Made by a program: the position numbers and the translations under genes. Positions 47,853 through 55,165 of a stretch of 64,000 nucleotides of DNA are shown here, piece by piece; the stretch's first letter is position 1, and the number at the start of each line of letters is the position of its first letter. Below the pieces are notes generated by a model. That model made no database searches. It was not told the origin of the DNA and saw only the letters and a program-made list of their open reading frames with translations. Where the stretch lies: the NCBI RefSeq assembly GCF_900113955.1, contig NZ_FORH01000001.1, forward strand, positions 1,811 to 65,810, given 5' to 3'. The stretch comes from Celeribacter neptunius. Its GTDB lineage: Bacteria > Pseudomonadota > Alphaproteobacteria > Rhodobacterales > Rhodobacteraceae.

Positions 47853-49241
47853 TCAGGCGGCGCAGGAGCCGCCCAAGGTGACCTGATTGCGGCCATCGGC
47901 CTTGGACCCGTAGAGCGCCTGATCGGCGATATCCAACAGCCGGTCGGTGGCCGAGGCCCGCCCGCCGGGCGTCCCGCCCATGGCCAGACCGATCGAGGCC
48001 GAGACCGTGACCGGAATGCCCTCCGGAGTGACCGTGGCGGGGTGGGCGCAGATCGCGCTGCGCAGCCGTTCGGCCACCATGCGCGCTTCCATCAGCGAGG
48101 TCATCGGCATGCAGATCAGGAATTCCTCACCGCCGAAGCGGGAAACGAGATCCATGCCGCGCAGGTTGTCCCGGAGCCGTTCGGCCACCTCGATCAGAAC
48201 CGCGTCGCCGACCGCGTGACCATAGGTGTCGTTGACCGCCTTGAACCGGTCGATATCGATCAACATCAACGCATAGGGCTGGCCGGTCTCTTGCGCTTCG
48301 GCGGCGATCTTTTCGAGATGCGGCATGGCGTAATGACGGTTGTACAGCCCGGTGAGCTTGTCGCGGGTGGCCAGACGCAGCCCCTCGTCGAGGGTCATTT
48401 GCAACAGATCGGCATCTTTCTTGCGGCGCATCTGGGTGCGCAGGCGCAGGGTCATTTCCTCCGGATCGGCACCACGGGTGATCAGGTCATTGGCGCCGAG
48501 ATCGAGCGCCATCAGCGCTTCCTTGCGGTCCTGCGCGCCATGCACGACCACGATCCCGGCATTGCGGGTCTGTTCGCGGGCGCGCAGGTCGGAGATCAGC
48601 CGCAGCCCGTCGCTCGAGCCGCCGGCCTGGGCCGAAATGACATAAAGATCGGCGACATCGCCATGGTAGATCGCCTCGAGCAGGTGATCGGCGCGTTCGA
48701 TGGAGATCTGATCGCTGACCATGCCCTTGAGCCCGGCGCGCCAGGACATCGCCTCTTCGGTCGTGCTGCCGATGAGGGTGATCTTGCCCGGATGGTCATA
48801 GAGGTTGCTCGCCTCGTTGAAGCCCAGGGCATGCGAGGTCTCGTTGCGGCGGCGCAGTTCCTCGGAGGTGGCCGAGGCGCGCATCAGGGCGCGGACGCGG
48901 GCCGTGAGGGTGAGCTCGTCGAGCGGCTTGGTCAGGAATTCGTCGGCCCCGGCCTTGAGTGCTGCGATCTTGGCTTCCTTGTCCTGCGCCGGGGTGATGA
49001 TCGCCACCGGAATATGCGTGGTCACAGGATCGGATTTCAGCTCGGCACAGGCTTCGAACCCGGTCATGTCGCCAAGGTCCATGTCGAGGATGATCAGGTT
49101 CGGGCGCATGCGGCGTGCCAGCGCAAGCACCTCGGCCCCCGAAGGTGCCTGTGTCACATCGTAATAGGCCGATGCGAGCTTGACCTTCAGGATGATCCGG
49201 TTGGTCGGTACATTGTCTGCGATCAGGATGCTGCCCGCCAT
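47853..49241 (-). CDS. pleD: PleD-type diguanylate cyclase with two receiver domains
   Basis: A 462-residue response regulator. The first receiver (residues about 4-118) has phosphoacceptor Asp53 (LIILDMDLG) and Lys in LTKPLD, but its acidic pocket reads ADN rather than DD. The second receiver (about 153-270) lacks a phosphorylatable Asp and is probably an adaptor. The C-terminal GGDEF domain has active-site RFGGEEF and, five residues upstream, an RxxD product-inhibition site (RGMD). It makes c-di-GMP when phosphorylated, controlling motility and surface attachment. It is monocistronic with the DUF3572 gene divergent upstream. Confidence 0.93.
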   Translation of the reverse strand: MAGSILIADNVPTNRIILKVKLASAYYDVTQAPSGAEVLALARRMRPNLIILDMDLGDMTGFEACAELKSDPVTTHIPVAIITPAQDKEAKIAALKAGADEFLTKPLDELTLTARVRALMRASATSEELRRRNETSHALGFNEASNLYDHPGKITLIGSTTEEAMSWRAGLKGMVSDQISIERADHLLEAIYHGDVADLYVISAQAGGSSDGLRLISDLRAREQTRNAGIVVVHGAQDRKEALMALDLGANDLITRGADPEEMTLRLRTQMRRKKDADLLQMTLDEGLRLATRDKLTGLYNRHYAMPHLEKIAAEAQETGQPYALMLIDIDRFKAVNDTYGHAVGDAVLIEVAERLRDNLRGMDLVSRFGGEEFLICMPMTSLMEARMVAERLRSAICAHPATVTPEGIPVTVSASIGLAMGGTPGGRASATDRLLDIADQALYGSKADGRNQVTLGGSCAA

Positions 49242-49713: not shown

Positions 49714-49800
49714 GCCGGCGGCGGACGAGAGCGGGTGAACGCGGGGCAAACAGTGGGCACACACCGGGCAGACACTGGGCAAGTGATTGAAAGGCAAGGC

Positions 49801-50517
49801 ATGAGCGCGACAAGCCGGCGCGAGATCACGGCGGTGCTGTTCGACAAGGACGGCACGCTGATGGATTTCCAGAGCAGCTGGGGGCCCTGGGCCGCCGGGG
49901 TGATCGGGCGCATTTGCGGCCCGGATGCGGGATTGAGACGTGCGGTGTCCGCGGCATTGGGATTCGATCATGACCGACAGAGATTCGCCCTCGACAGCCC
50001 GGTGATCGCCGGAACGCCGGAGGAGGCGGTGGTGGTGTTGCAGCCGTTCTTTCCCGCCGTGAGCGCGGCTGAGATCTCCGCCTGGCTCGACCCGGACCCG
50101 GCGGCCTTCCGGCCGGTGCCGGTGCTGCGGCTGCGCGAGACCTGTGAACGCCTGACCGGGCAGGGGATTCGGCTGGCCGTCGTTACCAATGATTTCGAAA
50201 GCGCCGGGGCGGATCATCTGAGTCAGATGGGCGTGTCGGACCTGTTCGAGACGGTGGTCGGCTATGACAGCGGCTATGGTGGTAAGCCGGCGCCGGGCCC
50301 CTGTCTCGGCGCGGCAGAGCGTCTGGGCGTGCTGCCCGAGCGCTGTCTCATGGTGGGCGACAGCCTGCACGATCTGATCGCAGGGCGGCGCGCCGGGATG
50401 CGAAGCCTTGCGGTTCTGACCGGTGTGGCAGGGGCGGCGGAACTGGCGCCACAGGCGCAGGCGGTGCTCAACAGCATCGCCGAGTTGCCCGGCTGGCTGG
50501 CCGGGGAGGACCTCTGA
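49801..50517 (+). CDS. HAD-family phosphatase (Gph-like)
   Basis: A 238-residue haloacid dehalogenase-fold phosphatase. The nucleophile motif is AVLFDKDGTLMDF (Asp15 and Asp17), motif II is LAVVTNDFES, and motifs III/IV appear in GGKPAPGPCL and MVGDSLHDLIAG. A helical cap lies between motifs I and II. Relatives are phosphoglycolate or sugar-phosphate phosphatases; specificity is not predictable. The ATG at 49801 has an AAGGCAAGG context. The gap to the next gene (50518-50730) shows no feature. Confidence 0.88.
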   Translation: MSATSRREITAVLFDKDGTLMDFQSSWGPWAAGVIGRICGPDAGLRRAVSAALGFDHDRQRFALDSPVIAGTPEEAVVVLQPFFPAVSAAEISAWLDPDPAAFRPVPVLRLRETCERLTGQGIRLAVVTNDFESAGADHLSQMGVSDLFETVVGYDSGYGGKPAPGPCLGAAERLGVLPERCLMVGDSLHDLIAGRRAGMRSLAVLTGVAGAAELAPQAQAVLNSIAELPGWLAGEDL

Positions 50518-50730
50518 ACGCGGCTCTGCCGGGGCGCGAGGTGTCCGGGTGACATGGGCGTCACGGGCATCATGGGAGCGTTATGGCGGGATTGGTTCCG
50601 ATCCGGCAAAAATGCCGAAAATCCTGCACAATTTAAACCTGTGGAACGGCGTTTGACCGGTCAGGTTGGTAATTTCTTAAGGGTGAGTCCGTAACACTCC
50701 GGGCAGATGAATCGGGGAGGCATGGCGATC

Positions 50731-51330
50731 ATGCATGGTATGATTAACCGAGCTATCCAATGTTTCATGCGCGACACTTACGGCGTGCATGTTTGGGAAA
50801 AAGTGGCTCAAAATGCGGATCTTGGCTTCGATAATTTCGAGGCCATGTTGAGCTATCCCGATCAGATTACCCTCGATGTGCTGGGGCGTGCCGCGCGGCA
50901 ATTGCACAAGCCCGTCGAGACCTTTCTCGAGGATCTCGGAACCTATCTCGTGTCCCATCCCAATGTCGAGGCGATCCGCCGTCTGCTGCGGTTCGGGGGC
51001 GAGAATTTCACGGAATTTCTCTATTCTTTAAATGATTTGGAGGGGCGCGCCCGGTTGGCGCTCCCCGATCTCGATATGCCGTCGCTTCGCGTCGAACATG
51101 TCGAGGACGGGACATTCCGGCTGAGCTGTTCGAGCGCCATGCCGGGCTTTGGCTATGCGATGGTCGGGGTGATGCGGGCGATGGCCGACGATTACGGCGC
51201 GCTGGTGTTTCTCGAACATCAGGGCTGGATGGATTCGGGCGAGGAGGTGATCACCATCAATCTCCTCGAAACCGCTTATGCCGAAGGCCGCGCCTTTGAA
51301 CTGTCCGAGCGAATCGGAGGTGATGTGTGA
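50731..51330 (+). CDS. H-NOX-like domain protein lacking haem ligands
   Basis: A 199-residue protein starting MHGMINRAIQCFMRDTYGVH, typical of H-NOX (haem NO-binding) domains; an upstream ATG at 50707 is possible. The whole fold is recognisable (LDVLGRAARQLHKPVETFLE, GGENFTEFLYSLNDLEG, PDLDMPSLRVE). Where H-NOX proteins carry the haem-ligating His (in DxxH of the F helix), this one has Glu104. The YxSxR haem-propionate motif reads C133-S-S135-A-M137. Haem binding as in canonical members is therefore unlikely. The stop overlaps the GTG start of a diguanylate cyclase, its predicted partner. Confidence 0.85.
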   Translation: MHGMINRAIQCFMRDTYGVHVWEKVAQNADLGFDNFEAMLSYPDQITLDVLGRAARQLHKPVETFLEDLGTYLVSHPNVEAIRRLLRFGGENFTEFLYSLNDLEGRARLALPDLDMPSLRVEHVEDGTFRLSCSSAMPGFGYAMVGVMRAMADDYGALVFLEHQGWMDSGEEVITINLLETAYAEGRAFELSERIGGDV

Positions 51331-52346
51331 GTAGTTTCGAGTTTGATCCATCTGCGTTGATTGCCTTCATGCCGATGAGCCTGGTGTTCGACAATGCCGG
51401 GGTCATCACCTTTGTCGGGCCGACGCTGGCCAAACTGCGCCCGGCCCAGGACATGATCGGCAGGCCGGTGACGGAAGTGTTCACCATCCGCGACAATGGT
51501 CGGGGGAGTGGCGATGATCCGATCCCGCTGGGCACGAAACTCTATCTGAATTTCCAATCCGGGATTTCGACCCCGCTCAAGGGCATGGCGGCGGCGATCC
51601 CCGCCGCAAAGGTGAATATCCTCAACCTGTCTTTCGGCATTTCGATCGTCGACGCGGTGGCCAATTATCGCCTCACCGCGGGCGATTTCGCCCATACCGA
51701 TCTGGCGATCGAGATGCTCTATCTGGTCGAGGCGAAATCCGCCGTTCTGGAAGAGACCAAGCAGCTGAACGCGCGCTTGCAGGGCGCCAAGGTGGCGGCC
51801 GAGGAACAGGCCTTTACCGATACGCTGACGGGGTTGAAGAACCGTCGTGCCATGGATCACGTCCTGGCCCGGATGCTGCGGTCCAGCGTACCCTTTGCCC
51901 TGATGCATCTCGACCTGGATTACTTCAAATCGGTCAATGACACCCTGGGCCATGCCGCCGGCGATGCCGTGTTGCAGCAGGTGGCGAGAATCCTGTCGGA
52001 GGAAACCCGCACCGACGATATGGTGGCGCGGGTCGGCGGCGACGAGTTCATCCTGATCTTCAACAAGATCGTCGAACACGATCACCTCTATCATCTGGCC
52101 GCGCGGATCATCACCCGGCTGGAAGAGCCGGTACCCTATGAAGAGACCGAATGCCGGATTTCCGGCTCGATCGGCATCACCACCACGGATTTCTACGATC
52201 ACCCGGATGCCGACCGGATGATCCACGATGCCGATCTGGCGCTCTACAGTTCGAAATATGACGGCCGGGGCAGGGCGACGGTCTTTGATCCGCTGGTCCA
52301 TGACGGCAATGTCGGTGAGTTGCCCGCGGTGCAGGTGGGGCGCTGA
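51327..52346 (+). CDS. HNOBA-GGDEF diguanylate cyclase
   Basis: A 339-residue protein starting at GTG 51327 with a CGGAGGTGAT site. The N-terminal part (about residues 5-125; FMPMSLVFDNAGVITFVGPT, KVNILNLSFGI) resembles the H-NOX-associated (HNOBA) PAS-like domain of guanylate cyclases. A coiled coil (residues 133-160) leads to a GGDEF domain with intact active site RVGGDEF (237-241) and an RxxD inhibition site (RTDD, 228-231). It should make c-di-GMP, regulated by the H-NOX-like protein with which it overlaps. No EAL domain is present. Confidence 0.9.
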   Translation: MSSFEFDPSALIAFMPMSLVFDNAGVITFVGPTLAKLRPAQDMIGRPVTEVFTIRDNGRGSGDDPIPLGTKLYLNFQSGISTPLKGMAAAIPAAKVNILNLSFGISIVDAVANYRLTAGDFAHTDLAIEMLYLVEAKSAVLEETKQLNARLQGAKVAAEEQAFTDTLTGLKNRRAMDHVLARMLRSSVPFALMHLDLDYFKSVNDTLGHAAGDAVLQQVARILSEETRTDDMVARVGGDEFILIFNKIVEHDHLYHLAARIITRLEEPVPYEETECRISGSIGITTTDFYDHPDADRMIHDADLALYSSKYDGRGRATVFDPLVHDGNVGELPAVQVGR

Positions 52347-52457: not shown

Positions 52458-52532
52458 GGTCCGTTCGTCTATCGGTTAGGACGCCAGGTTTTCAACCTGG
52501 AAAGAGGGGTTCGATTCCCCTACGGACTGCCA
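52458..52532 (+). tRNA. tRNA-Glu(TTC), copy A
   Basis: A 75-nt tRNA with acceptor GGTCCGT/ACGGACT, anticodon arm CCAGG-TTTTCAA-CCTGG region reading TTC, GGTTCGATT T loop and encoded CCA. It decodes GAA/GAG. Identical to the minus-strand copy at 63852. The following 401 bp (52533-52933) contain no recognisable gene. Confidence 0.97.
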
Positions 52533-52933: not shown

Positions 52934-55165
52934 ATGGAGTGCCTGACGGATCTGGACCTGACATTCGCCGCCGCCGCCGCTGCCGGCCTGTGGGCGGTGT
53001 GCTGTCTGGTGCTGGTCTGGGTCGTGCGCAACAATCGCTTTGCCGGTCAGCCGGCCTTTGTGCTGACCCTGCTGGCGATGCTGTGGTGGTTGTTCACGGC
53101 GCTGTTCGATCTCGGTTCGCAGAACGAAAGCTGCAAGGTGGGCTGGTCGCTGATCGCCTGGCCCGGGATCACCCTGCTTCCCATCGCCTGGACCTTCTTT
53201 GTCTTCGACTACACGATGAACACCAGCGCGCGCCGGCAACCGCTGCGGCTCCTGCTCTATATCGGCCTGCCGGGCATTGCCGGGCTCATCGCCCTCACCA
53301 ACAGCCAGACCCATCTGCTTTACGGCACCGATACCCGGCTGGTGACCGAGGACGGGAATTCCTATGTCGTCTTCGATCACGGGCCGCTGTTCTATGCCGT
53401 GGCCTCCTGTCTCTATATCTTTGTCATGAGTACGCTGAGCGTGCTGGGCTATGCCTTTTTCAAGGCGAGAAAGGTCATCCGACCGTTCCTCGGCGTGCTG
53501 TTCAGCATCACCATCGTGCCGCTGGCCGCCAATCTCGGCTATGTGCTCGGGGGCTTCACGGTTTTCGGCTATGATCCGACACCTTTCATGTTTGCGGTCT
53601 CTCTCATCGCTCTGAGTTGGCTGTTGCTGAACAATACGATGATGGATACCGCGGCGCAGGGGCGGAATCTGCTGTTCTATGCCAGCCAGGACCCGGTGAT
53701 CCTGCTGGATGCCGGCGGGCGCTTTGTCGGGGCGAACCCCGCCGCCAAAGCCGCGTTTGGCACCAACCTGCCAAGACCGGGTGACGAGCTCGACCAGATC
53801 GGCCAGATCGGGCCGAACCTGCACCGTCTGATCGAGAATGGCATACAAGGGTTTGCTGAGCCGATCCGGTTGGGGGGGCGCATCTTCGACCCGCGTGCCT
53901 TGCCGATCGAAAGCCCGATCCGGACCAAAACCCCGCTTCTGGGCTGGGTCATCTCGCTGATCGACATCACCGAACGCGAACATTCAGCCGAGGCCCTGCG
54001 CAAGGCGCTCAGCGATGCCGAGGCCGCCAATCGCGCGAAATCGAATTTTCTGGCCAATGTCAGCCATGAAATCCGCACGCCGCTCAATGGCATTCTCGGC
54101 ATGGCCTCGCTGCTGGGAGAGACGGAGCTGGACAAGGACCAGCGCGACTATGTCGAAGTGATCGAAGAATCCGGCCAGGTGCTCCTGACCACCATTGGCG
54201 ATGTGCTCGATCTGTCCAAGATCGAGGCCGGTAAAATCGTTCTGGACACCCGCCCCTTCGTCTTGCGAGATGCGATCGAGGCGGCACGGGCGCTGTTTTC
54301 GGCCAGCGCCATGGGCAAGTCGCTCGCGCTCACCGTAACCGTTGAGAAGGACCTGCCCGAGATCATCACCGGTGACGATCACCGGTTTCGCCAGGTGCTC
54401 CACAATCTCGTGTCCAATGCCATCAAATTCACCGAGGCCGGCGGTGTCGCGATCCATGCCGCCGCCAGCGCGGATGGCCGCATGCTCCGCCTTCGGGTCA
54501 GCGACAGTGGACCGGGGGTCCCGGCCGAGGCGCGTGAGGCGATTTTTCTGCCGTTTCAACAGGCGGATGCCAGCGACACGCGAAAATTCGGCGGGACCGG
54601 TCTGGGGCTCTCGATCTCGCGACAACTGTGCCGACAGATGGGCGGCGAGCTCAGTCTGATCCGCGATGTGGACGCGGGCGCCTGTTTCGAAATCCTGCTG
54701 CCACTTACCGCATCTGAGGCCCCCCCGGCGGAACCGGTCCCGTCCGACCCTCTCTCGCCGCCGGTCGCCGGCGCCCGGCCCGATACCGTGCTGGTGGTCG
54801 ACGACAATCGGACGAACCGGCTCATTCTGGAAAAATTCCTGACCGATGTTGCCGGTCGGATCGAGACCGTCGCCAGCGGGCAGGAGGCGGTGGACAGGGT
54901 GCGCGACAACGCATTCGACATCATCCTGATGGATATCCAGATGCCGGAAATGGGCGGCGTCGAAGCCACACGGAAAATCCGCGCCCTCGAAGACGCCCGT
55001 GGCGGGGCGCGCAGCTATATCGTCGCCGTGACCGCCAATGCGATGCCCGAACAACGCCAGCACTATCTCGATGCAGACATGGACGCGGTGCTTTCGAAAC
55101 CCGTCTCCAAGGCACAATTGCTCGCCCTGATCGACAAGAGCCACCAGCCCGCGGACCCGACCTGA
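52934..55165 (+). CDS. Hybrid histidine kinase with 7TM sensor
   Basis: A 743-residue hybrid sensor kinase. The first 230 residues contain seven membrane segments of the HisKA_7TM type, for example [16 protein letters not shown] and [24 protein letters not shown]-like region (about 240-340) follows, then the HisKA phosphoacceptor ([18 protein letters not shown]), the HATPase domain ([33 protein letters not shown]) and a C-terminal receiver ([24 protein letters not shown] with phosphoacceptor Asp). The signal is unknown, likely a small hydrophobic or membrane cue. No cognate regulator is adjacent. It converges on phaC, with a hairpin between. Confidence 0.93.

Follow-up and report, generated by a model that had tools for sequence, protein, structure and literature searches.

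An H-NOX protein without either canonical haem-holding feature is inherited with a diguanylate cyclase in Celeribacter and related Rhodobacteraceae

Results

We analysed a window of Celeribacter neptunius contig NZ_FORH01000001.1, meaning the whole stretch of 64,000 nucleotides, in which an H-NOX gene without haem ligands overlaps the gene of an HNOBA-GGDEF protein. The features of this pair, together with the tRNA gene that follows it, are listed below with the evidence for each.

50714..50720, + strand: GGGGAGG, a possible ribosome-binding site 10 bases 5' of the ATG at 50731 (read in the sequence)
50731..51330, + strand: H-NOX (HNOB) gene without haem ligands (Pfam HNOB, Alr2278 alignment, AlphaFold2, Foldseek)
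51040..51042, + strand: GAG, encoding Glu104 in place of the proximal His (alignment and DNA)
51127..51141, + strand: stretch encoding C133-S-S-A-M137 in place of YxSxR (alignment and DNA)
51327..52346, + strand: HNOBA-helix-GGDEF diguanylate cyclase with a GTG start and a 4-base overlap with the H-NOX gene (Pfam GGDEF, HNOBA profile, model)
52458-52532: tRNA-Glu, between the pair and a hybrid histidine kinase gene

The surroundings hold further signalling genes. A second diguanylate cyclase gene (47853-49241, - strand), PleD-like with two receiver stretches and a GGDEF domain, lies about 1.5 kb before the pair, and downstream, beyond the tRNA gene, a hybrid histidine kinase is encoded (52934-55165, + strand) that combines a 7TM sensor, a PAS domain and a C-terminal receiver. 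Directly upstream of the H-NOX gene is a gene for an HAD-type hydrolase (49735-50517, + strand). Phaeobacter sp. G2 (L178) likewise has an HAD gene upstream, and a figure legend of PMC8738867, a 2022 review, names HAD as one of the neighbour families.

H-NOX proteins are the textbook haem sensors of NO and O2. The open frame of the H-NOX gene spans 50707-51330 on the + strand and offers in-frame ATGs at 50707, 50722 and 50731, the last of which (MHGMIN) is the start conserved by its clade: 91% of the divergent sequences described below have Met there. The protein matches Pfam HNOB (PF07700) with an E-value of 8.6e-26 and 91.2 bits against a cut-off of 25.5, the only such match in the C. neptunius genome. 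AlphaFold2 modelled it confidently as an H-NOX fold (pLDDT 92.1, pTM 0.87), and Foldseek matched the model to Nostoc H-NOX at a TMq of 0.78-0.79 and to soluble guanylate cyclase (sGC) beta-1 at up to 0.81. Both family sequence and predicted fold thus place the protein among H-NOX (HNOB) proteins.

With residues counted from the ATG at 50731, alignment to Nostoc Alr2278 (E 5.8e-21) set His105 against Glu104 and the Y, S and R of YxSxR against Cys133, Ser135 and Met137. A preliminary description made from the letters of the window had noted Glu104 where the haem-ligating His is expected and C-S-S-A-M (133-137) in place of YxSxR, and the alignment confirms both readings. The DxxH stretch of the proximal His reads N-D-L-E104, and YxSxR, the haem-propionate motif (PMC8196705), is likewise absent. 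A His displaced to a neighbouring position, which would have told against that description, was looked for within N101-R106 and not found: the neighbours read N-D-L-E-G-R, so no His has moved to an adjacent position. The protein contains only two Cys, Cys11 and Cys133.

The partner gene begins with the GTG at 51327 and the TGA of the H-NOX gene ends at 51330, giving the four-base overlap already noticed in the preliminary description. Its GGDEF domain was recognized by Pfam at an E-value of 2.5e-41 (141.6 bits), while Pfam HNOBA (PF07701) reached only 18.5 bits on the window partner alone, under its cut-off of 23.4. A profile built from 60 partner N-terminal domains matched 2p04 (E 2.7e-7), residues 207-345 of moth sGC beta-1 (E 9e-6) and also 2p08, in parts which we take to be H-NOXA/HNOBA domains. 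By this profile the N-terminal domain belongs to HNOBA, and Pfam HNOBA itself detected 63 of 77 partners at an E-value of 0.01 or better. The partner model (pLDDT 93.2, pTM 0.71) joins HNOBA to GGDEF through a helix at residues 126-162. Across relatives all 155 partners keep the GGDEF active-site motif, 152 of them with RxxD ahead of it, and on this motif the window partner is predicted to be a diguanylate cyclase. In 104 of the 155 pairs the start codon shares bases with the preceding stop codon, in the form ATGA, GTGA or TTGA.

We examined the distribution of both genes in 198 Rhodobacteraceae genomes, one per genus, of which 138 had an HNOB match. From 134 of these (G023, G036, G061 and G068 were left out) we read 149 H-NOX sequences, which split into a divergent clade found in 130 genomes and a canonical set of 19 sequences in 18 genomes; 14 genomes carried both. 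One of the 149, from G176, had a TAA inside the matched stretch. The ligand position of the divergent proteins in the 130 genomes was occupied by Pro in 97, His in 10, Asn in 5, Gln, Ala and Arg in 3 each, Glu, Thr and Ser in 2 each, and Asp, Lys and Gly in 1 each. Adding 26 named loci gave 156 divergent sequences with 13 different residues in this column: Pro in 103, Glu in 14, His in 11, Gln in 8, Asn in 5, Arg in 4, Ala in 3, Thr and Ser in 2 each, and Val, Asp, Lys and Gly in 1 each. Thirteen of the 14 sequences with Glu came from Celeribacter or Pacificibacter, the named close relatives, and the remaining one was L161. Two Rhodobacter capsulatus records (L055, L056) carry Gln. None of the 156 divergent sequences retained Y-S-R.

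The 19 canonical proteins from the family had His with Y-S-R in 16 cases, the others being Q+YSR, H+YHR and H+YSE. A class-wide draw of 385 genomes yielded 18 with an HNOB match, 13 of them outside Rhodobacteraceae, and all 12 of these 13 proteins that were read had His with Y-S-R. L194, a weak HNOB match belonging to another family and missed by our own profile, was excluded from the counts. Altogether 30 of 33 canonical sequences kept both features, the three exceptions being those named above, which bears out the contrast with typical bacterial H-NOX proteins drawn in the preliminary description.

In a tree built after removal of the ligand and motif columns, divergent (151 rows) and canonical (34 rows) sequences fell on two sides of one branch with a support of 100; nine near relatives (six named loci and three genome-handle rows) had been dropped beforehand. 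Within the divergent clade the tree required at least 9 changes between His and non-His and at least 34 changes of the ligand residue. These change counts are rough, and do not distinguish loss from regain, because this was a quick tree in which 101 of 182 inner branches had support below 80 and long branches were flagged.

The pairing with the cyclase was nearly perfect. An open reading frame with HNOBA and GGDEF lay directly downstream at 154 of 156 divergent loci; of the other two, L023 ended at a contig edge and L172 had an open reading frame with a longer open frame. An HNOBA partner was present in all 130 genomes from which a divergent H-NOX had been read, and none of the 19 family canonical sequences had both the N-terminal domain and GGDEF directly downstream. 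At the level of the 198 genomes, H-NOX and the HNOBA profile occurred together in 135, including G004 with a canonical H-NOX. H-NOX occurred alone in 3, all canonical-only, and HNOBA alone in 2, with both matches at contig ends. The canonical H-NOX proteins of L002, L179, L180, L182, L185 and L192 adjoin open reading frames matching the HNOBA profile, in which no GGDEF was found. L181, from the class set and of the same family, encodes a canonical H-NOX with His and Y-S-R beside an HNOBA-GGDEF-EAL partner whose EAL domain is cut at the locus end; this arrangement resembles a haem-competent version of the divergent pair.

The divergent proteins are constrained at other positions than the haem-related ones. 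Canonical sequences scarcely vary at the ligand, Y, S and R columns; in the divergent clade the ligand and Y columns stood at the 57th percentile of entropy, S at the 86th and R at the 97th. G70, R87, P117, G146 and A152 were invariant in 156 of 156 divergent sequences, and W22, Y42, G90, D153 and R106 were kept in 154-155. The stretches RRLLRFGG (83-90), RAMADDYGAL and GRxFxL were nearly invariant. The Gly hinges that PMC8738867 ascribes to all H-NOX groups may correspond to G70 and G146.

We also considered whether His104 was coupled to other positions. Trp or His at position 135 accompanied His104 in 8 of 11 sequences as opposed to 12 of 140 without it (raw Fisher 3e-6). However, only 2 independent pairs lay on supported branches, leaving relatedness as a possible cause, and we therefore make no claim of coupling. 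Ser8 together with His104 (10 of 11 versus 39 of 140) had the same weakness of few independent lineages.

Within the genus, each of the 20 genomes examined had a single, stop-free H-NOX gene and an HNOBA match downstream of it or in its neighbourhood. Their ligand residue was Glu in 17 and Gln, Val and Lys in 1 each, with His in 0. We used 11 of the 19 genus relatives fetched to estimate dN/dS and obtained a value in eight cases. It was 0.047-0.097 in the seven pairs with 82-90% identity, values that are approximate because dS exceeded 1 in all seven; one pair at 57% identity gave 0.217, and dS was saturated in three pairs. The H-NOX gene is under purifying selection. The low ratio and the presence of the pair in 20 of 20 genomes speak against a decayed gene, and that presence also speaks against chance.

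Discussion

Both canonical haem-holding features are gone from the window H-NOX protein, which keeps a predicted H-NOX fold and is inherited with one diguanylate cyclase. Such proteins have been described before. Starting from Paracoccus denitrificans H-NOX (locus Pden_3719/3720), the 2022 review PMC8738867 delineated a very large H-NOX cluster, Group 5, in which fewer than 10% of members have the proximal His, most have Pro, the Gly hinges are kept and there is no conserved Cys. It lists GGDEF among the neighbour families and asks how Group 5 proteins sense anything. Our counts follow this description: His in 10 and Pro in 97 of 130, a downstream HNOBA-GGDEF at 154 of 156 loci, and the most frequent Cys column, Cys133, in 86 of 156. 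The agreement of 10 in 130 with the reported share makes the window pair a member of the described group, an assignment that rests on the review's criteria rather than on a rebuilt sequence network. Hence the novelty implied by the preliminary description does not stand, although its contrast with typical H-NOX does.

The window protein has Glu where Pro prevails in Group 5. The Group 5 section of the review does not mention the loss of YxSxR or the HNOBA partner, both of which are counted here. What we add is this clade-wide loss, the near-perfect co-occurrence with the partner, the Glu sub-lineage, the apparent haem-competent counterpart at L181 and the placement of the Dinoroseobacter shibae protein in the His-bearing minority; as earlier work was sought among open-licence papers, we claim no priority for the counts themselves.

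We think it somewhat more probable than the alternatives combined that the window pair is a Celeribacter-type Group 5 H-NOX/HNOBA-GGDEF module in which H-NOX serves as a haem-free inhibitory subunit of the cyclase. In this mechanism H-NOX would bind the HNOBA domain of the cyclase and hold its c-di-GMP output down. In haem-bearing H-NOX, NO breaks the Fe-His bond and the sub-domains move (PMC8196705). Inhibition by the window protein could proceed through the same hinge motion of the sub-domains, in keeping with the invariance of Gly70 and Gly146. With no Fe-His bond to break, the protein would act either as a standing inhibitor or in response to a signal other than a gas at His-ligated haem. 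That the pair keeps its regulatory contact, as the preliminary description proposed, is supported indirectly by the constancy of the HNOBA partner (130 of 130) and of the GGDEF motif (155 of 155).

Genetics in P. denitrificans bear on this mechanism. In PMC5588039 (2017), its H-NOX is said to have no axial His, like that of R. sphaeroides, and its gene overlaps a GGDEF gene; the record in our set (L177) has Pro at the ligand site and A-S-Q for Y-S-R. The hnoX mutant was partly deficient in biofilm, without BapA, and the dgcAB mutant formed hyperbiofilm; the authors proposed that H-NOX inhibits DgcA. In the same work NO derived from NirS still stimulated biofilm in hnoX mutants, yet the authors inferred that NO acts via H-NOX. 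A 2025 study (PMC12582929) found c-di-GMP below detection in the P. denitrificans mutant, and the mechanism there is unsupported by direct measurement. These observations fit an inhibitor that works without His, and they are also compatible with a role for NO. The earlier suggestion that the window pair senses something else or works without haem agrees both with its sequence and with these genetics, given Pro at the site and an hnoX phenotype. For R. capsulatus, the gene beside the homologue reportedly affects gene-transfer-agent production and motility (PMC7232146).

Known systems resemble the pair in some respects and differ in others. PMC8846402 and PMC7232146 list D. shibae H-NOX among haem-based NO sensors, with Dgc1 as the enzyme that it inhibits. 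It shares the clade and the HNOBA-GGDEF partner but, unlike the window protein, keeps His. We identified it as L096, from a genome with a contig that, over the 2,000 bases tested, matches D. shibae plasmid NC_009955.1 base for base; the protein retains His in DxxH and has the motif C-I-W-H-R. It is the sole clade member for which we found reported evidence of haem or NO, and since it belongs to the His-bearing minority this evidence should not be extended to the rest. H-NOX proteins of Shewanella woodyi and Legionella pneumophila also act directly on a c-di-GMP enzyme, and NO reduces its synthesis, but they are listed as haem sensors with a GGDEF-EAL partner, whereas the window partner has GGDEF without EAL (PMC8738867; PMC8846402). 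The alpha subunit of sGC offers an H-NOX without haem, its His missing in human and YxSxR missing in moth (PMC8196705). That pseudo-H-NOX sits in a heterodimeric cyclase where an N-terminal extension excludes haem, in contrast to the stand-alone window protein, and the fold match to human sGC chain A (8hbe_A, alpha-1) was weak (E 2.3e-5, TMq 0.48, rmsd 10.7).

The strongest competing explanation is that the window protein still binds haem, through His2, the Glu104 carboxylate or no protein ligand at all, and still senses NO. His2 or another residue could serve as the ligand: of 160 divergent sequences 84% have His2, where canonical ones mostly have Lys or Tyr. The Pro aligned to P118 of Alr2278, presumably a haem-pocket residue, is kept in 160 of 160. 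PDB entry 2kil is an H-NOX of S. oneidensis with the change His103Gly and Fe(II)CO, which means that the H-NOX fold can hold haem without a proximal His. D. shibae H-NOX, a clade member, is a listed haem sensor despite having no YxSxR, and thus loss of that motif alone need not abolish haem. Against this stand a ligand column with 13 residues and at least 34 changes on the tree, and the loss of Y-S-R in 156 of 156 sequences. Moreover, the loss of His104 brings no gain in His2, which occurs in 116 of the 140 sequences without His104 and in 9 of the 11 that have it. We regard continued haem binding as unlikely, at roughly one chance in a few.

A thiol redox sensor, like the haem-free H-NOX of Vibrio cholerae that acts through a Cys-zinc site (PMC7108781), is far less probable. 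Cys133, the most frequent Cys column, speaks in its favour, but no Cys column exceeds 56% in the divergent clade, and PMC8738867 describes Group 5 as having no conserved Cys. Having only Cys11 and Cys133, the window protein lacks the 3-Cys zinc motif of the V. cholerae type, and we rejected this candidate. Least credible of all is a decaying H-NOX gene that persists only as the translational partner of the cyclase gene, for although two functional motifs are lost and the in-frame start-stop overlap is common, we set decay aside in view of the dN/dS ratios of the seven close pairs, the stop-free matches in all 20 genus genomes, the clade-specific invariant residues and the published phenotype of the P. 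denitrificans hnoX knockout (PMC5588039).

The haem-free inhibitor may be the rule in the whole family, although at this breadth we hold the reading only tentatively, at somewhat short of even chances. Under this proposal the NO sensor of a c-di-GMP switch has repeatedly been stripped of its haem while its enzyme partner was kept, and the commonest H-NOX of the family would be a haem-free inhibitor subunit for a signal still without a name. The NO-responsive D. shibae system would then stand apart as a case in which the ligand was kept or came back, together with a Trp or His where YxSxR once had its Ser. The His-plus and His-minus pairs form a natural series, and their comparison would reveal what the module conveys once haem is gone. 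It would also caution that annotations of H-NOX as an 'NO sensor' in Rhodobacteraceae are mostly unproven.

Two side observations concern the regulation and mobility of the pair. CtrA-type sites (TTAA-N7-TTAA with at most 1 mismatch) occurred in 25 of 155 stretches upstream of divergent hnoX. Shuffling the bases 20 times left 4.05 such stretches on average and never more than 8, and a coding control had 1 of 155; for sites without any mismatch the count was 1, against 0.2 after shuffling. The excess fits a report that hnox is expressed less when the CtrA phosphorelay is mutated in D. shibae and P. inhibens (PMC12363192). At the window locus we found only a site with two mismatches and therefore did not use it as evidence of CtrA control. 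A divergent H-NOX/GGDEF pair is carried by the 120-kb plasmid CP104104.1 of Phaeobacter sp. G2, and the H-NOX gene is present in five other records of the plasmid collection.
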